Shown in pieces: positions 16,706-26,713 of a stretch of 64,000 nucleotides of DNA. This stretch comes from Arthrobacter globiformis (GTDB taxonomy: Bacteria; Actinomycetota; Actinomycetes; Actinomycetales; Micrococcaceae). A program made the translations under genes and the position numbers. Positions within the stretch are counted from its first letter, which is position 1, and every line of letters begins with the position of its first letter. The notes below the pieces were generated by a model. The model was not told the DNA's origin. It was given only the letters and a program-made list of their open reading frames with translations, and did no database searches. The stretch spans positions 1 through 64,000 of the forward strand of contig NZ_QLNP01000103.1 of NCBI RefSeq assembly GCF_003261175.1. Direction: 5' to 3'.

Positions 16706-16931
16706 CCGTTCAGCCTACCGTTTAGCCGCCCGCAAGCCTTGGAGAGGCGCTCCGATGCTAATATTTCGGGTACGTGGCAACGCCTGATTGCGGCGGCCGC
16801 GCCCCCGGCGTCGCCCGTTTTGGCTGGCCGCCCGATTTGGCCGGCCGCGCAGCTTGGCTGCAGATGGGGCAGCATGCCAAAAGAGATACGCGCAAAAGAG
16901 TTAGGCGCAGAAGAGATTGGACGATCCTGAG

Positions 16932-18488
16932 ATGACGGCGCCTGTGCCTGCGATAGGGGAAACGGCCATCGGCACTTCCACGGAGCCGGCCCGGCCGGAA
17001 GTGGACAACCCACGCTCGCCGATCCTCTCCGGTTTCATCGGTTCCATGTTCCTGCTCATCGGGTCGCTCGGCGTCGGCTGGCTGGCTCCGGTCTCGGAGC
17101 TGCGGCGGATGCCCCTGTTCATCTGGATGCGCACGGAGGCGTTCGGCGTCGGGCTGTCCATCGTGCTGCTTGCGGTGGGCGGCATGCTGCTGGTCCGGGC
17201 GTGGCTCAGGCTTGGCCAGCACGTTCATGTGTGGGGCCGGGAAGCCCGGAAGGCCACCCTGCAGGCCGTCGTCGCGTGGGGTCTTCCCATGATGTTCACC
17301 GTCCCGCTGTTCAGCCGTGATGTGTACGCCTACATCGGCCAGGGCCGGCTGATGGTGGAGGGCTTCAACCCGTACGAGAACGGCATCTCGGCGCTGTCCA
17401 ACTACTTCCAGCTGGGCGCGGACAAGATGTGGACCGAGGCCCCGGTTCCCTACGGCCAGGTGTTTTTGTGGATCGAACAGTTCGTGGTCTGGTCCACCAA
17501 CGTTCACCCGGAAGCCAGCATCATGCTGTTCCGCCTCGCCGCGCTGGCGGGTGTGGTGCTGTGCATCATCTACGTGCCTAAGCTTGCCGAGCTGCACGGC
17601 GTCAATCCGCACCGTGCCCTCTGGCTGACGGCGGCAAACCCGCTCTTCCTGACCAACTTCATCGCCAGCGTCCACAATGATGCGCTGATGATCGGGCTGG
17701 CCCTCGCGGGCCTCTACTACTGCGCCACGCGGCGCGTCATCCTGGGCCTCGTCCTCGTCACGGCCTCCATCGCCGTGAAGCCGATCACCGTGGTGTTCCT
17801 TCCGTTTATCGGGTTGCTCTGGGCGGGCAAAAGGGCCAGCTGGCCCAGGAAGTTCGTGTTCTGGGGCCTGACCGCCGGAATCAGCCTCGCCCTGCTCTAC
17901 GCCATGAGCCTGGTCAACGGCTTCGGGTTCGGCTGGATTAACGGGCTCTCGGCGCCCGGCAGCGTCTGGATCTGGTACGCCCCCGTGGGGCTGCTTGGCC
18001 TGGTGGTCGCCTCCATTTTTAACGCGTTCAGCCTGGACGGCTGGGGGCTGGCGAAATGGGTTTACGACGCCGGCAAGCTGCTTGCCGTGGGCATCGTCGC
18101 CTGGCAGATTTTCCGGGGCGAACACGACCGCCTCATGCGCCGCCTGACCCTCGCCTTCGCGGCCGTTGTGGTGCTCGCCCCCATGATCCAGTCCTGGTAT
18201 GTGGTGTGGCTGATCCCGCTGTTTGCCGTCACGGGGATCCGCGACGACTGGCAGGTCAAGGCCCTGTACTTCATCGTGTCCTTCTTCATGGTCTATGCCA
18301 TCTCCGACCAGCTGGAAGTCTTCCCCTACCTGCAGACCGGCGACCTGGGCCTTGCCCTGGCGCTGGCCCGCAACGCAGCCGCCATCATTGCCCTGCTGTT
18401 TGCCCTGTACCTGATCTTCCTGGACCGCAGCACCAAGCTGCTTTTCAGCAAGGCGGAGCAGCCGGTCACGACGCGCCCCGTCATCTGA
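16932..18488 (+). CDS. mptB: polyprenol-phosphomannose-dependent alpha-1,6-mannosyltransferase
   Basis: GT-C membrane glycosyltransferase of about 518 aa with about a dozen transmembrane helices. In mycolic-acid relatives MptB starts the alpha-1,6-mannan backbone of lipomannan; here it should use polyprenyl-phosphomannose for a cell-envelope mannan. Seen: the acidic catalytic loop FSRDVYAYIGQGRLM after the second membrane segments, WLTAANPLFLTNFIASVHNDAL, and VKPITVVFLPFIG. An in-frame TTG at 16917 is an alternative start. Its 3' end overlaps that of the convergent AlkD-like gene by eight bases. Confidence 0.9.
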   Translation: MTAPVPAIGETAIGTSTEPARPEVDNPRSPILSGFIGSMFLLIGSLGVGWLAPVSELRRMPLFIWMRTEAFGVGLSIVLLAVGGMLLVRAWLRLGQHVHVWGREARKATLQAVVAWGLPMMFTVPLFSRDVYAYIGQGRLMVEGFNPYENGISALSNYFQLGADKMWTEAPVPYGQVFLWIEQFVVWSTNVHPEASIMLFRLAALAGVVLCIIYVPKLAELHGVNPHRALWLTAANPLFLTNFIASVHNDALMIGLALAGLYYCATRRVILGLVLVTASIAVKPITVVFLPFIGLLWAGKRASWPRKFVFWGLTAGISLALLYAMSLVNGFGFGWINGLSAPGSVWIWYAPVGLLGLVVASIFNAFSLDGWGLAKWVYDAGKLLAVGIVAWQIFRGEHDRLMRRLTLAFAAVVVLAPMIQSWYVVWLIPLFAVTGIRDDWQVKALYFIVSFFMVYAISDQLEVFPYLQTGDLGLALALARNAAAIIALLFALYLIFLDRSTKLLFSKAEQPVTTRPVI

Positions 18489-19922: not shown

Positions 19923-21017
19923 CTAGGAAGAAGCGGGTTCGCCGGCCCGCTCGGTGCTCCGGCGCAGCGTCACCTCGCCCTTGACGCCCACGGTGCCGGC
20001 CGCCGCGTGGCCCGACCCGGCGGGAACTGCCAGCCTCCCGATCTCCTCCAGGGGCAGGCGTACGGTGGAGAGGGCGGGCCGGAAGTCGCGCAGGGTTTCG
20101 ATGTCGTCAAAGCCGGCGATGGCGGCGTCACGGGGGACGCGCAGCCCCTTGGAGCGCAGCGCGGCAGTGGCGCCGATCGCCATGACGTCGTTGACGGCGA
20201 AGATACAGAGCCGTGGCGGTGCGGCGGCTTCAGTACCGCCCTCGCCGTTGCCGCCGTGCGCCCCGATGCGTGCGGCGAGCTCCAAGCCCGCCTCGTAACC
20301 ACCCGTGCGGTCAAATCCCGTGTGCAGGACATCTGCCGGCGAAAACCCGGCGTCCGCCAGGCCCCGCTGGAAGCCGCGCACCCGGTCGTCGGAGGTCAGG
20401 AGGCCCTCCGGACCGGCTATGATCACGAACTCCCCGGCATGTGAGGCGGCCAGTTCCCGGGCGAGTTCGGCGGCGAGCTCCTCGTTGGGAACCTCAACCA
20501 CGTGATAGCCCTCGTCGGATTCGGCGCCCACTACGGCGTGTCCCACAACGCCCACCTGGCCACCGTTGCGGCAGTAGCGGTCAAGCTCGGCCGCCAGTTC
20601 GGCGTTGCCCAGCTGGTCGGCGGTCCGTGCAGACCGCGATCCCGCGATCACTATCGAGTCCGCCCGGCGCGCCGCAAACGCAGCCACGGCCGCGCGCTCG
20701 TCCGCGGGGCTGCCCGCCGTGGTGGCCAGCAGCACCATCTTGTTTTGGTGCCGGGCCGCGGTCTGGACGCCGCGGGCGATGGCTGAGAAGTAGGGGTCCG
20801 CGATGTCGTGCACGATGAGTCCGATCAGGCCGGAGCTCGACTTGGCGAGGCCCTGTGCCTGGGCGTTGGGGATGTAGCCGAGGGAGTCCGCAGCCTTCCG
20901 GACCCGCTCAGCGATATCAGGGCCGGGGGTCCTGGCGGAACCGTTCAGGACACGGCTGGCGGTGGCAGGGGAGACCCCCGCCAGGCGGGCTACTTCGGTC
21001 AGGGTGCTTGCTGCCAC
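19923..21017 (-). CDS. LacI-family transcriptional regulator
   Basis: 364-aa repressor: N-terminal helix-turn-helix LTEVARLAGVSPATASRVLNG, hinge VRKAADSLGYIPNAQAQGL and a periplasmic-binding-protein-like effector domain (GLIVHDIADPYFSAIARGV; GFDDIETLRDFRPALSTVR). It is divergent from a three-gene sugar operon and the shared intergenic region holds two LacI-type palindromes, so local repression lifted by a sugar derivative, with self-control, is a strong inference. Confidence 0.92.
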   Translation of the reverse strand: MAASTLTEVARLAGVSPATASRVLNGSARTPGPDIAERVRKAADSLGYIPNAQAQGLAKSSSGLIGLIVHDIADPYFSAIARGVQTAARHQNKMVLLATTAGSPADERAAVAAFAARRADSIVIAGSRSARTADQLGNAELAAELDRYCRNGGQVGVVGHAVVGAESDEGYHVVEVPNEELAAELARELAASHAGEFVIIAGPEGLLTSDDRVRGFQRGLADAGFSPADVLHTGFDRTGGYEAGLELAARIGAHGGNGEGGTEAAAPPRLCIFAVNDVMAIGATAALRSKGLRVPRDAAIAGFDDIETLRDFRPALSTVRLPLEEIGRLAVPAGSGHAAAGTVGVKGEVTLRRSTERAGEPASS

Positions 21018-21096
21018 AGACGAAACTCCTCTTCAACGGGCCCCGGCATCGGGAAATTCGGCTGATGCCCACATTATCGCAGTTACGGGAACTCGC

Positions 21097-21110
21097 GGAA
21101 AGCGCTTGCC
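21097..21110. promoter_or_regulatory. LacI-type operator 1
   Basis: GGAAAGCGCTTGCC is a near-perfect palindrome with the central CG of the LacI/GalR family. It lies 80 bases from the regulator start; a TTGACT follows at 21114-21119 and a TATAGG at 21132-21137, so it sits near a promoter for the sugar operon. Confidence 0.65.
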
Positions 21111-21143
21111 ATATTGACTGTGTGGCTGCACTATAGGAGCAGT

Positions 21144-21159
21144 GGGAATGCGCTTTCCC
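21144..21159. promoter_or_regulatory. LacI-type operator 2
   Basis: GGGAATGCGCTTTCCC, a 16-base palindrome with one mismatch pair, 47 bases after operator 1 and just downstream of the likely promoter of the sugar operon, a position suited to block transcription. Confidence 0.65.
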
Positions 21160-21192
21160 GCTTTGCTAACCATCTCGAATGAATGAGGACTC

Positions 21193-22362
21193 ATGGGCTT
21201 CGAAACAAAGACGATCCGTATCGCCATGAACGGCATTACCGGCCGGATGGGCTACCGCCAGCATCTGCTGCGCTCCATCCTCCCCATCCGCGACGCAGGC
21301 GGCTTCACCCTGGAGGACGGCACCAAAGTCCAGGTCGAGCCGATCCTCGTCGGCCGCAACGAGGCCAAGATCCGTGAACTGGCAGAGCTCCACAAAATTT
21401 CGGAGTGGACCACCGACCTCGACGGCGTGATCAACGATCCCACTGTCGATGTCGTCTTCGACGCCTCCATGACCAGCCTGCGGGCCGCAACCCTGGAGAA
21501 GGCCATGCAGGCCGGCAAGCACATCTTCACCGAGAAGCCGACGGCGGAAACGCTCGAGGAAGCCATCGAGCTGGCGCGCATCGGCAAGGAAGCCGGGGTC
21601 ACCGCCGGCGTCGTGCACGACAAGCTTTACCTGCCCGGCCTGGTTAAGCTCCGCCGCCTCGTGGACGAAGGGTTCTTCGGCCGGATCCTGTCCATCCGCG
21701 GCGAATTCGGCTACTGGGTCTTCGAAGGCGACGTGCAGGCGGCCCAGCGCCCGTCCTGGAACTACCGCAAGGAGGACGGCGGCGGAATGACCACGGACAT
21801 GTTCTGCCACTGGAACTACGTCCTCGAAGGCATCATCGGCAAGGTCACGAGTGTCAACGCCAAGACCGCCACCCACATCCCGACGCGGTGGGATGAGGCC
21901 GGTAAGGAATACAGGGCAACGGCAGACGACGCCTCCTACGGCATCTTCGAGCTGCAAACCCCCGGCGGGGACGACGTCATCGGCCAGATCAACTCCTCCT
22001 GGGCTGTCCGGGTTTACCGTGACGAGCTGGTCGAGTTCCAGGTGGACGGCACGCACGGATCTGCCGTCGCCGGCCTGAACAAGTGCGTAGCGCAGCAGCG
22101 GGCCCACACACCGAAGCCGGTCTGGAACCCCGACCTTCCAGTCACCGAATCCTTCCGCAGCCAGTGGCAGGAAGTCCCCGCCAACGCCGAACTGGACAAC
22201 GGCTTCAAGCTGCAGTGGGAAGAGTTCCTGCGCGACGTCGTCGCCGGCCGCGAGCACCGCTTCGGGCTGCTTTCCGCCGCACGCGGCGTGCAGCTCGCCG
22301 AACTTGGCCTGCAGTCCAGCGACGAACGCCGCACCCTCGACATCCCGGAGATCACGCTCTGA
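21193..22362 (+). CDS. Gfo/Idh/MocA-family sugar dehydrogenase
   Basis: 389-aa NAD(P)-dependent dehydrogenase. Seen: an N-terminal Rossmann glycine motif (NGITGRMGYRQHL), the conserved EKPTAETLEEA with the Glu-Lys-Pro catalytic lysine, and the C-terminal alpha/beta substrate domain (DDVIGQINSSWAVRVYRDELVEF). Members oxidise sugars or inositols, often at C3 or C1. First of three tightly coupled genes (TGATG overlap with the next) under an adjacent LacI regulator. The substrate is unknown, as no transporter is next to it. Confidence 0.88.
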   Translation: MGFETKTIRIAMNGITGRMGYRQHLLRSILPIRDAGGFTLEDGTKVQVEPILVGRNEAKIRELAELHKISEWTTDLDGVINDPTVDVVFDASMTSLRAATLEKAMQAGKHIFTEKPTAETLEEAIELARIGKEAGVTAGVVHDKLYLPGLVKLRRLVDEGFFGRILSIRGEFGYWVFEGDVQAAQRPSWNYRKEDGGGMTTDMFCHWNYVLEGIIGKVTSVNAKTATHIPTRWDEAGKEYRATADDASYGIFELQTPGGDDVIGQINSSWAVRVYRDELVEFQVDGTHGSAVAGLNKCVAQQRAHTPKPVWNPDLPVTESFRSQWQEVPANAELDNGFKLQWEEFLRDVVAGREHRFGLLSAARGVQLAELGLQSSDERRTLDIPEITL

Positions 22363-23576
22363 TGACTTCACTCATCTTTCCCACATCCGAAGGCGGGACC
22401 CGGGAGTACCGCCTCCGCTCCGCCACCACCTGGGCCAAGCCGACGGCGCCGCTGACGTCGCGCCGGGCCTACGCGGCGGCACACGTCATCCCCGAGGTTG
22501 CCGCAGACAACACCCCGGGCGCCCCGGCCCGTCTCGATTGGGACGCCACCCTGGCCTACCGGCACGAGCTGTGGTCCTACGGGCTCGGGGTTGCCGACGC
22601 GATGGACACCGCCCAGCGCGGCATGGGTCTGGACTGGCCCGCCACGCAGCAGCTGATCAAGCGCACAGGGGCGGAAGCGGCCTCCGTGGTCTCCGCCGGC
22701 GGCACGGCCACGGCGGGCATGACCGTTCGCGACCTTGTGTCCTGCGGCGCGGGCACTGACCAGCTGGACCTCGCCACGCTGCCGTCCGGCGCGGCCGGGC
22801 TGCAGGCTGTCCTGGCCGCCTACCGCGAGCAGGTCGCCGTCGTGAGCGAGGCCGGACCCAAGGTGATCCTCATGGCCTCCAGGGCGCTGGCCCAGGTGGC
22901 GTCCGGTCCCGAGGACTACCTGAGGGTCTACTCCACGCTGCTCCAGGAAGCCGAGCAGCCCGTCATCCTGCACTGGCTCGGCACCATGTTCGATCCCGCG
23001 CTGGCCGGCTATTGGGGCTCGGACAGTGTTGACGAGGCCACCGAGACGTTCCTTTCCCTCATCCGCGAGAACGCGGACAGGGTGGACGGCGTCAAGGTCT
23101 CGCTCCTGGACGCCTCGCATGAGATCGCGCTGCGGGCGGCGCTCCCCGAGGGCGTCCGCCTCTACACCGGTGACGACTTCAACTACCCCGAGCTGATCGA
23201 CGGCGACGGAACCCTCCACTCGGATGCACTGCTGGGAATCTTTGCGGCAATCTATCCCGCTGCGTCCGCGGCGCTGCAAAGCTACGACGCCGGAGATGCC
23301 GCCAAAGCGCGTGCCATCCTGGACTCCACCCGCGAACTGGGCAAGCACATCTTCAGTGCCCCCACGTTTTACTACAAGACCGGAATCGCCTTCCTGTCCT
23401 GGCTCAACGGCAAGCAGCCCGGATTCCAGATGGTCGGCGGCCTGCACTCCGGCCGTTCCGTGGTGCACCTGGCGAAGACCTTCGAACTGGCCGACGAAGC
23501 CGGGCTGCTGAAGGACCCCGCGCTCGCAGCCTTCCGGATGTCCGATTTCCTTCGAATCAACGGAGTGGGAGTATGA
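22362..23576 (+). CDS. DUF993-family protein (aldolase/DapA-like)
   Basis: 404-aa protein of the DUF993 family, which has a TIM-barrel fold related to dihydrodipicolinate synthase. Recognised from its start (TSEGGTREYRL), the block WDATLAYRHELWSYGLGVADAMDTAQRGMGL, HWLGTMFDPALAGYWG, VDGVKVSLLDASHE with a candidate Schiff-base lysine, and SAPTFYYKTGIAFLSWL. The reaction is undetermined; a retro-aldol or dehydration step is an inference from the fold. Its start overlaps the stop of the dehydrogenase, and its stop overlaps the start of the isomerase-like gene. Confidence 0.85.
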   Translation: MTSLIFPTSEGGTREYRLRSATTWAKPTAPLTSRRAYAAAHVIPEVAADNTPGAPARLDWDATLAYRHELWSYGLGVADAMDTAQRGMGLDWPATQQLIKRTGAEAASVVSAGGTATAGMTVRDLVSCGAGTDQLDLATLPSGAAGLQAVLAAYREQVAVVSEAGPKVILMASRALAQVASGPEDYLRVYSTLLQEAEQPVILHWLGTMFDPALAGYWGSDSVDEATETFLSLIRENADRVDGVKVSLLDASHEIALRAALPEGVRLYTGDDFNYPELIDGDGTLHSDALLGIFAAIYPAASAALQSYDAGDAAKARAILDSTRELGKHIFSAPTFYYKTGIAFLSWLNGKQPGFQMVGGLHSGRSVVHLAKTFELADEAGLLKDPALAAFRMSDFLRINGVGV

Positions 23577-24430
23577 CCTTCAATTCAGAACCGTCCCCCT
23601 TTTCACGGCTTTCCCTCAACAGCGCCACCACCAAGAAGTGGACGCTCGCCGAGGCTGTCGACGGCTGCGCCCGTGCAGGCATCCCCGCCATCGGGCCCTG
23701 GCGGGACATCGTCGCCGAGGCCGGGCTGGACAAGGCGGCGAAGCTGATCAAGGACGCCGGGCTCCGGGTTTCCTCGCTGTGCCGCGGCGGGTTCCTCACC
23801 GCTCCGGACGCCGGCGGGCAGGCGGCAGCGCTTGCGGACAACAGGGCCGCGATCCTGGAGGCCGTTGCTCTCGATACGCAAGAACTGTTCCTCGTGGTCG
23901 GGGGGCTGGCGCCGGGGGAGAAGGACGTCGTGGCTGCCCGCCAGCGTGTGGCTGACCGGCTCGAGGACCTCGTCCCATTCGCCGTCGAACACGGCGTCCG
24001 GCTGGTGCTGGAACCCCTGCACCCGATGTACGCCGCCGACCGTGCGCTCATCTCCACGCTGGGGCAGGCGCTGGACCTGGCGGCGCCGTACGACGCCCGG
24101 GCGGTGGGTGTCGCCGTCGACACCTTCCATGTCTGGTGGGATCCGGACCTGAAAGCGCAGATCGAGCGCGCCGGCCGGGAGAACCGGATCGCCTCTTACC
24201 AGGTGTGTGACTTCAACCTTCCGATCGCCGCGGACGCGCTGCTTTCCCGCGGCATGATGGGCGACGGCGTGATTGACTTCGCGACGATCGGCACCTGGGT
24301 CCGGGACGCTGGGTATACAGGCGACATCGAAGTGGAGATATTCAACCAGGAGATCTGGGACGCCGACGGCGACGACGTCCTGGGGAGGATGAAGGAGCGC
24401 TACGCGGAACTGGTGCAGCCCTATGCCTGA
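23573..24430 (+). CDS. sugar phosphate isomerase/epimerase-like protein
   Basis: 285-aa TIM barrel of the xylose-isomerase-like family. Metal-site residues are visible in RLVLEPLHPMY (Glu), GVAVDTFHVWWDPD (Asp, His), SYQVCDFNL (Asp) and YTGDIEVEIF (Glu). Members act as isomerases, epimerases, dehydratases or, in 3-keto-glycoside pathways, as lyases. Last gene of the LacI-controlled operon, starting inside the end of the DUF993 gene. Confidence 0.88.
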   Translation: MTFNSEPSPFSRLSLNSATTKKWTLAEAVDGCARAGIPAIGPWRDIVAEAGLDKAAKLIKDAGLRVSSLCRGGFLTAPDAGGQAAALADNRAAILEAVALDTQELFLVVGGLAPGEKDVVAARQRVADRLEDLVPFAVEHGVRLVLEPLHPMYAADRALISTLGQALDLAAPYDARAVGVAVDTFHVWWDPDLKAQIERAGRENRIASYQVCDFNLPIAADALLSRGMMGDGVIDFATIGTWVRDAGYTGDIEVEIFNQEIWDADGDDVLGRMKERYAELVQPYA

Positions 24431-24486: not shown

Positions 24487-24918
24487 ATGGACAAACAAGC
24501 CAGGGACGCCGAGGCGAGCGCTGTTGTCGCTGCGCGGCCGGAGCGGGTGTGGAAGGCGCTGACGGATCCGGCCGACGTCAAGGAATACTTTCTCGGCACG
24601 AACGTCACATCCACCTGGCGGGAAGGGGAGTCTGTGACGTTCGAGGGGGAGTGGCAGGGCAAGTCCTACCAGGACAAGGGGACCGTGCTGGAAGTCCGCC
24701 CCAACGAACTCCTGCGCATCACCCACTACAGCCCCTTGTCGGGCCTGGCCGACGAGCCGGACAGCTACCACACCGTGGAATACGGCCTGGAGCCCGTGGC
24801 GGAGGGCACCCGGGTGAGCATCGCCCAGGGCAACAACAAGAGTGCTGACGAAGCCGCGGAGTCGGAGAAACTTTGGGGCATGGTGCTTGGCAACCTCAAG
24901 GAGTACCTGGAGGGCTGA
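24487..24918 (+). CDS. SRPBCC (AHSA1-like) domain protein
   Basis: 143-aa START/Bet v1-like fold with a large ligand cavity. The start AAVVAARPERVWKALTDP (as EASAVVAARPERVWKAL) and the end LWGMVLGNLKEYLEG are typical of the AHSA1/polyketide-cyclase-like group. AGGAGG lies nine bases before ATG 24487. Role unknown; it converges on the LapA-like gene and has no operon partner. Confidence 0.82.
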   Translation: MDKQARDAEASAVVAARPERVWKALTDPADVKEYFLGTNVTSTWREGESVTFEGEWQGKSYQDKGTVLEVRPNELLRITHYSPLSGLADEPDSYHTVEYGLEPVAEGTRVSIAQGNNKSADEAAESEKLWGMVLGNLKEYLEG

Positions 24919-25675: not shown

Positions 25676-26713
25676 ATGCGCGGCAACCGTGTTATCGCTG
25701 GAACGTCCGCTTTGCTCTTGGCCGTCACTGGCCTTTGGGCTGCGTCCCTCGCTATCGGCGGTGGGGAGGTGCCGCAATCAACGGCGACTCTCAGTCCGGG
25801 TTCGCTACCGTCCCCCAACAAGCCCAGGGTCCCGGCGCCTGATGTTCGGATCGCTGCTGTCGGTGACATGAATGGCGTCAGGAACATTGAGCCGACTAGC
25901 CCCTCCGGCCGGAACGGTGCTGCGATCACGCGGCTCGCGCAGAAGAATCAGATTGACGCGTTCATGGGGCTCGGGGACTTCCAGTACGACACCCCGCGCT
26001 GCGCTGACTACGTGAAGTACTGGACGCCGCTGTGGGGTGGCACCAAACCAAAGCTGTACTGGGTGTCCGCCCCCAACCATGACTGGCAACCAGGGCGGAA
26101 CGAAGACCTCGACAACTTTATGAATGGCCAGTGCCCGGGTGCCCCGGCGAAGGCTGCGATCAACCGGCAGCGCGGGTTCATCGGGAACGGGGATCCGTAC
26201 TCGAAGGACTTCGGAAACTGGCACTTCGCGTTCCTGTCGTCCGCGCAGTGGCGCTACGACCCCGCGAAGGCTCACGCGTTGACGGCATGGCTGGACGGCG
26301 ACCTCGCTGCTGCCAGGGCGGCGGGCAAGTACCTGGCAGTTGTCTACCACGAACCGTACTTCACATCGAACACCGGCGAACATAAGCGGGCCCTTGACCA
26401 CAAGCCGTGGATCGACGTCATGTACAGGCACCGGGTCCGCCTGACCCTGTCAGGCTCACAACACAACTACGAACGCACATGTCCGGTGAACAACAAGGAC
26501 CAGTGCGTCAGCGACGGGATGACAGCGTTCCAAGTATCCACGGGAGGCATCGGCCTCCGCCCCTTCACCAGCAGTCCGCCGTACATCGCAAAGCGGTTCA
26601 GCAACACCCACGGGTTCCTCCGGATGACACTCCGCGACAACGGGTCTTTCAGCTGGAACTTCGTTCCAACGTCGGGGCCGGGCAAGGACGCGGGTACGCG
26701 CACCCTACCGTAG
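25676..26713 (+). CDS. secreted metallophosphoesterase (purple-acid-phosphatase-like)
   Basis: 345 aa with an N-terminal signal helix (SALLLAVTGLWAASLAIGG) and a calcineurin-like core: GD at 63-64, GLGDFQYD at 98-105, NHD at 134-136 (usual GNH), VVYHEPYF, and SGSQHNYER. The last motif normally reads GHxHxYER, so one metal histidine is replaced by serine. Likely cleaves phosphate esters outside the cell. GGGAGGAG lies just upstream. Codons are less G/C-biased than in neighbours and the gene lies beside a tRNA, which hints at transfer without proving it. Confidence 0.82.
   Translation: MRGNRVIAGTSALLLAVTGLWAASLAIGGGEVPQSTATLSPGSLPSPNKPRVPAPDVRIAAVGDMNGVRNIEPTSPSGRNGAAITRLAQKNQIDAFMGLGDFQYDTPRCADYVKYWTPLWGGTKPKLYWVSAPNHDWQPGRNEDLDNFMNGQCPGAPAKAAINRQRGFIGNGDPYSKDFGNWHFAFLSSAQWRYDPAKAHALTAWLDGDLAAARAAGKYLAVVYHEPYFTSNTGEHKRALDHKPWIDVMYRHRVRLTLSGSQHNYERTCPVNNKDQCVSDGMTAFQVSTGGIGLRPFTSSPPYIAKRFSNTHGFLRMTLRDNGSFSWNFVPTSGPGKDAGTRTLP

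Follow-up and report, generated by a model that had tools for sequence, protein, structure and literature searches.

A three-gene operon beside a divergent repressor gene

A 64,000-nucleotide stretch of Arthrobacter globiformis DNA (contig NZ_QLNP01000103.1, positions 1 to 64,000; hereafter the window) contains an operon of three overlapping genes, the central one of which encodes a protein of the family DUF993. The first gene encodes a Gfo/Idh/MocA oxidoreductase (here MocA; 21193-22362, plus strand; Pfam GFO_IDH_MocA at 4.1e-13, C3 domain at 1.2e-19). It overlaps by 1 base with the DUF993 gene (22362-23576, plus strand; PF06187 at 2e-179), which in turn shares 4 bases with the gene of an AP_endonuc_2 xylose-isomerase-like TIM barrel (here the isomerase; 23573-24430, plus strand; PF01261 at 1.4e-31). 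Divergent from the operon lies the gene of a LacI-family repressor, which begins with a GTG start (19923-21017, minus strand; Pfam LacI at 6.9e-13).

Two operators, to which no strand is assigned, are located between lacI and MocA and are spaced 48 bp apart. Operator 1 (GCGGAAAGCGCTTGCCAT, 21095-21112) has a motif score of 19.0 and operator 2 (TGGGAATGCGCTTTCCCG, 21143-21160) a score of 26.7, and both are conserved at related loci. The motif was trained on 29 sites from 15 of the 16 loci examined, including the window's own two; on both strands of the 64 kb, the next best position scores 7.8. Numbering loci, genomes and contigs with the prefixes L, G and C, we find both operators in L002-L011, L014, L025 and L031, one in L012, and none of this form in L013. 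Of the 78 GTDB loci that possess MocA, 72 have an operator-like palindrome in the 300 bp upstream of this gene (not found in L037, L039, L050, L058, L072 and L074), as against 32 of 1600 random 300-mers from the same loci, a comparison that is favoured by an expression partly written from sites already seen and by a control with fewer alternatives. The repressor has a helix-turn-helix and a sugar-binding-like domain and is separated from the operon by these conserved palindromes, an arrangement from which we infer that LacI binds there. An TTATNGCAGTT element at 21074-21084, upstream of the operators and common to the closest Arthrobacter loci, may belong to the lacI promoter.

The ORFs, their overlaps, the Pfam matches and the motif scores thus bear out the original prediction of three overlapping genes with a divergent LacI regulator and two operators. 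The range that it gave, 21018-24430, covers the operon and omits lacI itself. None of the four proteins (LacI, MocA, DUF993 and the isomerase) reaches an NCBIfam equivalog cut-off.

Conservation and spread of the core genes

A contig scan for DUF993 relatives returned at least 591 stretches, and gene layouts were counted in the best 80, which are mostly from Actinobacteria. MocA lies directly upstream of DUF993 in 77 of the 80 and the isomerase directly downstream in 77, with both in place in 76; the exceptions to this order are L042, L049, L050 and L061, where L049 has an incomplete MocA match further upstream. A LacI gene is found within 1.5 kb of the operon in divergent orientation in 55 of the 80 loci and in codirectional orientation in another 9. 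Among the genomes sampled, 113 of 150 from the own genus and 24 of 296 from across the phylum encode DUF993, whereas none of 14 control genomes does. Plasmid records (60 listed of 147) extend its range to Alpha-, Beta- and Gammaproteobacteria. In the type-A proteobacterial clusters MocA, DUF993 and the isomerase stay together, at ~44-61% identity and with many invariant columns.

Decay of the operon was also seen. In G311, DUF993 is absent from the genome and MocA from the 11 kb stretch (L152, on G311:C26), in which the lacI ortholog and the operator in front of it survive next to an isomerase-like remnant whose match is split in two; this is a decayed copy of the operon. In some other genomes of the genus, DUF993 copies are broken by stops or match in several pieces (G328:C1:2113666-2114858, G357:C1:3088476-3089381 and G430:C1:2009281-2010471).

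Operator-like sites in front of a glycerate kinase and a symporter

A LacI ortholog (at least 69% identity) is encoded in 33 of 41 genomes of the genus. The strict operator pattern GGGAANGCGCTTNCC occurs at 73 sites in 34 of these 41 genomes, as against 6 sites for the reversed control, and the seven genomes without such a site all lack DUF993. Thirteen of the strict-pattern sites end 29-31 bp before a match to glycerate kinase. The PF02595 kinases of the 41 genomes were scored without regard to DUF993 status, using single long-stretch matches only, which left out seven kinases that match PF02595 in two pieces and three short fragments. One ortholog group, with one kinase per genome (n=41), has a site scoring at least 12.8 in 30 genomes; its other 11 members score at most 7.6 and kinases outside the group at most 5.2, so that the threshold of 12.8 is a natural gap, chosen after the scores had been seen. 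The kinase site is present in 30 of the 33 genomes with the LacI ortholog and in 0 of the 8 without it, and the three LacI-positive genomes that lack the site (G303, G310 and G320) have the three most divergent LacI proteins, at 69-70% identity. Relative to DUF993, the site is present in 29 of 32 genomes with the gene and in 1 of 9 without it (Fisher p 1.4e-5, uncorrected for descent). The single exception is G311, which kept lacI.

Glycerate kinases of two families are also physically associated with DUF993. In tblastn searches with the own PF02595 kinases, 9 of 98 DUF993 loci contain one: directly next to the isomerase in L032, L039, L054 and L085, behind DUF993 in L082, behind lacI in L012, and at a distance of some kb in L021, L024 and L103. 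At L088, L089, L100 and L101 the annotated glycerate kinase belongs to the other family (DUF4147 and MOFRL domains). Isomerase, DUF993 and kinase occur together in L266 and L267. L082, L264 and L265, near-identical copies that we count as one arrangement, read GMC oxidoreductase, aldehyde dehydrogenase, MocA, DUF993 and glycerate kinase; the stretch read contains no isomerase gene.

A Pfam scan recognised no transporter among the window neighbours adjoining the operon, in agreement with the original prediction, which had placed uptake elsewhere and suggested a genome search with the same operators. The Pfam families of these neighbours are DNA-alkylation-repair, GNAT, AHSA1 and LapA-domain proteins, and the window ORFs at 16917-18488 and 25676-26713 match no Pfam family, the former being membrane-protein-like by eye. 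The AHSA1/SRPBCC-domain gene at 24487-24918 stands directly 3' of the operon; having homologs at only 2 of the 80 GTDB loci (L007 and L009), it was not counted as part of it.

The suggested search led to contig C58 of the own genome. Here, a site that differs from operator 2 at 1 of 18 positions lies upstream of a gene for an MHS-type transporter of the MFS, outside the window (L090, G000:C58, 1277-2878, with a likely start at 2686). Its best model is the metabolite/H+ symporter TIGR00883 (356.9 bits, E 1.4e-106, below the cut-off of 443.45), and the nearest named carrier model, also under its cut-off, is a shikimate transporter. These matches suggest that the C58 symporter imports an organic acid, with betaine- or proline-like compounds as the alternative. 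Relatives of the transporter at E 1e-120 occur in 23 of the 41 genomes, and a site lies within 400 bp upstream of 14 of the 23 at a score of at least 12.8 and of 15 at a score of at least 10. Random 400-mers, drawn from kinase and DHDPS loci of the genus rather than from whole genomes, reach these scores in 1 and 93 of 2000 cases, respectively. Scores of 22.7-26.8 are reached by the sites of the own symporter and of the close orthologs that G334, G310 and G320 encode (83-86% identity), and the 19 relatives that are ~55-60% identical comprise 10 with a site of at least 12.8, one at 10.3 and 8 with none. In G310 and G320 the cluster runs isomerase, DUF993, MocA, then lacI, then two tandem sites and then the symporter.

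The sites in front of kinase and symporter could instead be targets of a different LacI protein that recognises the same sequence, in which case the product of the operon would be unrelated to glycerate. The core GAAANCGNTTNC is generic for LacI proteins, and a loose operator pattern, useless by itself, is as frequent in the own genome (10 sites, several of them inside ORFs) as in the reversed control (10 sites). The 15-mer GGGAAAGCGCTTGCC, moreover, also occurs on own-genome contig C20, beside a different lacI and rhamnose genes. Set against this, the sites follow the LacI ortholog across the 41 genomes, G311 kept both lacI and the kinase site after DUF993 was gone, the symporter lies inside the lacI cluster in G310 and G320, and other genera link glycerate kinase to DUF993 by gene position, independently of operators. 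We therefore consider a second LacI an improbable source of these sites.

Several further sites came to light during the operator searches. Allowing two mismatches gave 218 sites in the own genome against 124 in the control, too many for interpretation. The C20 locus (L091), at which L-rhamnose mutarotase and isomerase-like genes adjoin the other lacI, has GGGAAAGCGCTTGCC in front of a gene for a MocA-DUF6807 fusion followed by a GH42 gene (G000:C20, 3219-7424). This site at first resembles a regulon member but was rejected as one because of the other lacI and the rhamnose genes at its side. In L013, L016, L019 and L020 (L019 scanned), the isomerase is directly followed by a DUF6807 fusion gene that belongs to the same cluster. 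In five genomes (L140, L141, L142, L144 and L145), an operator-like 15-mer recurs near genes that are ANTAR-type by eye and near a conserved membrane-protein-like gene, perhaps inside coding sequence.

DUF993 as a predicted Schiff-base lyase

In the DapA family, the Schiff-base lysine is located in beta-strand 6 and GTTGE is the pyruvate-binding motif. DUF993 has no match to an NCBIfam model at E 0.001, and its nearest solved chain, 4dnh (E 3.3e-115), is named only as an uncharacterized protein. Across 99 DUF993 sequences, K245 (within GVKVSLLD), H204, D211, the TGDD motif (269-272) and K339 are at least 97% conserved. When DUF993 is aligned by hhalign with ten DHDPS-family proteins (probability 61.6%, E 7.7e-5), K245 falls on the DapA Schiff-base lysine K161 and H204 on Y133; the GTTGE motif is not recognisable in DUF993, in a region outside the confident part of the alignment. 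A profile search of the PDB places two DHDPS chains on the K245 region at E 0.13-0.14, but the same search ranks a flagellar protein ahead of them (0.04) and also lists a further unrelated chain (0.7). Both comparisons are weak but agree with the DapA-like nature that had been assigned to DUF993 from sequence alone, and DUF993 is likely a DapA-like Schiff-base C-C lyase.

Neither DUF993 nor PF06187 is mentioned in the open-licence PMC literature searched, and queries of that library for the pathway by enzyme names or solved-structure codes gave nothing of evident relevance among the titles listed. This agrees with the earlier view of the operon as a catabolic unit without a published function.

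The oxidoreductase and the isomerase

MocA belongs to the Gfo/Idh/MocA proteins, with 50.5 bits for PF01408 (cut-off 24) and 70.9 bits for PF22725 (cut-off 27), and has an invariant E114-K115-P116 and H206. Its nearest solved chain, 3oqb (E 1.6e-136), is named only as an oxidoreductase. We predict that MocA catalyses the first step, an NAD(P)-dependent oxidation. The isomerase has invariant E147, D183 and E253, which we take to be metal ligands, and is near the solved chains 7vpf, 3ju2 and 3qc0, named only as xylose isomerase or sugar isomerase. It is predicted to be a ketol isomerase, an epimerase or a dehydratase. A second AP_endonuc_2 gene with its own operator lies beside the cluster in G306, G302 and G303 (L148 3852-5367, L149 4619-5521 and L294 557-1300), and in G337, G321, G331, G332 and G314 a site stands at the matching distance, as judged by site position alone.

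The closest named model of MocA is the levoglucosan dehydrogenase NF052479, and the levoglucosan proteins LgdB1 and LgdB2 are, in the available part of the source, annotated as the same kind of protein as the isomerase (PMC7676230). This raises the question whether the operon acts on a glycoside by oxidation and elimination. MocA would then make a 3-keto-glycoside, the TIM barrel would eliminate the aglycone and DUF993 would hydrate or cleave the product. If the substrate were a glycosyl-glycerate, the aglycone would itself be glycerate, which would directly explain glycerate kinase and acid carrier and would need no aldehyde dehydrogenase. An alpha/beta hydrolase family is, in addition, found behind lacI in nine close Arthrobacter loci (one was scanned and looks esterase-like), and L148 likewise has an esterase-like alpha/beta hydrolase directly behind lacI; neither this hydrolase nor the second AP_endonuc_2 gene was seen in the window. 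However, MocA reaches 76.7 bits with the levoglucosan dehydrogenase model, whose equivalog cut-off is 650, no reductase partner was found, and no glycosidase is annotated beside DUF993 in the annotated plasmid records. The aldehyde dehydrogenase in the arrangement without an isomerase (L082, L264 and L265) also fits an aldehyde product better. A glycoside route, the glycosyl-glycerate variant included, thus appears distinctly unlikely to us.

The second-best model of MocA is an inositol 2-dehydrogenase (61.9 bits), the best NCBIfam model of the isomerase is IolO (34.5 bits), and solved inositol and L-glucose dehydrogenases are distant relatives of MocA. These matches would agree with catabolism of a cyclitol, in which MocA would act as a dehydrogenase of the inositol type, the TIM barrel would dehydrate or isomerise the inosose, and ring opening would fall to DUF993. 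All of these scores lie far under their cut-offs, however, and the window operon contains no gene like IolB, IolC, IolD or IolJ. To our knowledge, the known inositol routes include neither an organic-acid symporter nor a glycerate kinase. We hold the cyclitol explanation to be a long shot.

DUF993 clusters in other lineages

In Nocardiopsis (L041, L047 and L055), the operon continues with an enolase-superfamily gene, which in L041 and L055 is preceded by a DHDPS-family gene, of the KdgD subfamily in L055. Enolase-superfamily genes adjoin the core only here and in L099 and L102. In four proteobacterial records the core is found with carriers of the acid type (TRAP or tripartite tricarboxylate) or with genes of the enolase family. 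DUF993 loci with an NMT1-like ABC system come from Nocardia, from Rhodococcus or Rhodococcoides, and from Mycolicibacterium.

A second kind of cluster (L083, L084, L086, L087, L089, L100, L103, L104 and L107) has DUF993 without a close MocA relative, together with a varying set of CoA-transferase, crotonase, acyl-CoA dehydrogenase, SDR, GMC oxidoreductase and Dabb genes, and often with sugar ABC transporters. This kind finds no good explanation in our present model. It would be expected if DUF993 were a general lyase that was recruited repeatedly, with the core serving lineage-specific substrates and the neighbours in other lineages uninformative for the window operon. The transporters beside DUF993 also vary (sugar ABC, NMT1-like ABC, TRAP, tripartite tricarboxylate and MFS). 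On the other hand, the three core genes remain together in the type-A proteobacterial clusters despite their divergence, and glycerate kinases recur in both kinds of cluster. On balance, we think it rather unlikely that the core has changed its substrate from lineage to lineage.

Proposed pathway

Taken together, we propose, with a probability of roughly 55%, that the operon forms the centre of a regulon under LacI repression, through which an acidic polyhydroxy compound is degraded to glycerate. An acidic polyol would be imported by the MHS-type metabolite/H+ symporter, and MocA would oxidise one of its hydroxyls to a ketone. The TIM-barrel protein would move or epimerise the ketone, so that DUF993, through a Schiff base at K245, could cut the carbon chain by retro-aldol cleavage. 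The resulting C3 aldehyde would become glycerate via an aldehyde dehydrogenase or a semialdehyde reductase, and glycerate kinase would feed the glycerate into central metabolism. One concrete scheme compatible with an acid substrate, with the distant IolO relationship of the isomerase and with glycerate as product is the cleavage of a 5-keto-hexonate into dihydroxyacetone and tartronate semialdehyde; this particular choice of compounds is unlikely to be the right one. The order and direction of the reactions, like the substrate and cleavage products, are predicted from the enzyme families and the linked genes.

A number of observations weigh against this pathway. A profile comparison of DUF993 with five DHDPS sequences gives a probability of only 2.5%, and Pfam finds PF06187 alone in DUF993, with no match to PF00701 (DHDPS). 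Seven of the eight genomes that jointly lack LacI and the kinase site form one clade, with G326 separate in the kinase tree. On the tree, only 1 to 3 pairs are independent of one another, a number that does not suffice for significance, so that descent alone could give much of the correlation between kinase site and LacI. The kinase site of the own genome is degenerate (TGGGTAATCGCGTTCCCT, score 13.1) and may not bind the repressor, and no aldehyde dehydrogenase or semialdehyde reductase gene bearing an operator was found. Among the symporter relatives, the siteless 8 of 23, all from the ~55-60% identical set, may be paralogs, and in G008, despite a LacI of 95% identity, no relative of the symporter is found at E 1e-120. 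Finally, several clusters combine DUF993 with ABC transporters of the sugar type, and the substrate may therefore vary with the lineage or be something other than an acid.

The original prediction had regarded the operon as a complete catabolic unit. This is not supported, as glycerate kinase and symporter appear to belong to the same regulon and are located elsewhere. The advance over that earlier reading is a predicted regulon that names an importer and an exit point, with an uncharacterised enzyme family at its centre. Operators shared with kinase and symporter would fix both ends of the pathway, and the substrate could then be sought among acids from which a C3 acid is formed, instead of among all sugars. 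DUF993 thereby becomes testable through its predicted importer and exit point. More tentatively, and at less than even odds, DUF993 may be the first representative of a family of class I (Schiff-base) C-C lyases for unphosphorylated keto-acids or keto-polyols, and the combination of MocA, isomerase, DUF993 and glycerate kinase a widespread, unrecognised route of central carbon entry, by uptake, oxidation, isomerisation and aldol cleavage to glycerate, in soil Actinobacteria and Proteobacteria.

Comparison with known systems

In the levoglucosan pathway, LgdA, LgdB1, LgdB2 and LgdC act together, and an LgdC-like reductase returns the 3-keto-sugar to glucose; like the window operon, that pathway combines a Gfo/Idh/MocA dehydrogenase with proteins that are annotated as sugar phosphate isomerases in the available part of the source (PMC7676230). 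The string 'DUF' is absent from the text of that paper. Unlike levoglucosan dehydrogenase, MocA remains at 76.7 of the 650 bits, and no LgdC-like reductase was found among the regulon genes. The linked genes, which indicate that an acid enters the pathway and a C3 acid leaves it, further disfavour the levoglucosan or 3-keto-glycoside analogy on which the operon had originally been interpreted.

The similarity of DUF993 to the DHDPS/N-acetylneuraminate lyase family (PF00701) consists, in the profile alignment, of K245 on DapA K161 and of TGDD on SGDD. In contrast to that family, DUF993 has no Pfam DHDPS match, aligns a histidine (H204) with DapA Y133 and shows no recognisable GTTGE in this alignment, the confident part of which does not reach that region.

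By sequence, homologs of the three core enzymes are encoded in the SMc04130-SMc04139 region of Sinorhizobium meliloti. The solved chain 3ju2 is SMc04130, and 4dnh is presumably SMc04132. SMc04132, SMc04133, SMc04135, SMc04138 and SMc04139 have been placed in one protein module, as far as the accessible part of that work goes (PMC12542648). The module differs from the window operon in that the same list includes SMc04135, the solute-binding protein of an ABC transporter. In the portions of the literature retrieved by Sinorhizobium meliloti locus tags, no function is given for the SMc04130-SMc04139 cluster.

The non-phosphorylated Entner-Doudoroff pathway proceeds through unphosphorylated intermediates and a DapA-like Schiff-base lyase to glycerate, which is taken up by glycerate kinase. 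It differs from the operon, which has oxidation by MocA and a TIM-barrel isomerase in place of a sugar-acid dehydratase, and whose DUF993 stands outside the DHDPS Pfam family; no dehydratase giving a 2-keto-3-deoxy acid is present in the window operon. The proposed pathway nevertheless resembles it in its unphosphorylated intermediates, its DapA-like lyase, and its end in glycerate and glycerate kinase. As in the Entner-Doudoroff case, a glycerate kinase is linked to the lyase, here through operator-like sites in 30 of 41 genomes and through kinase genes that lie beside DUF993.

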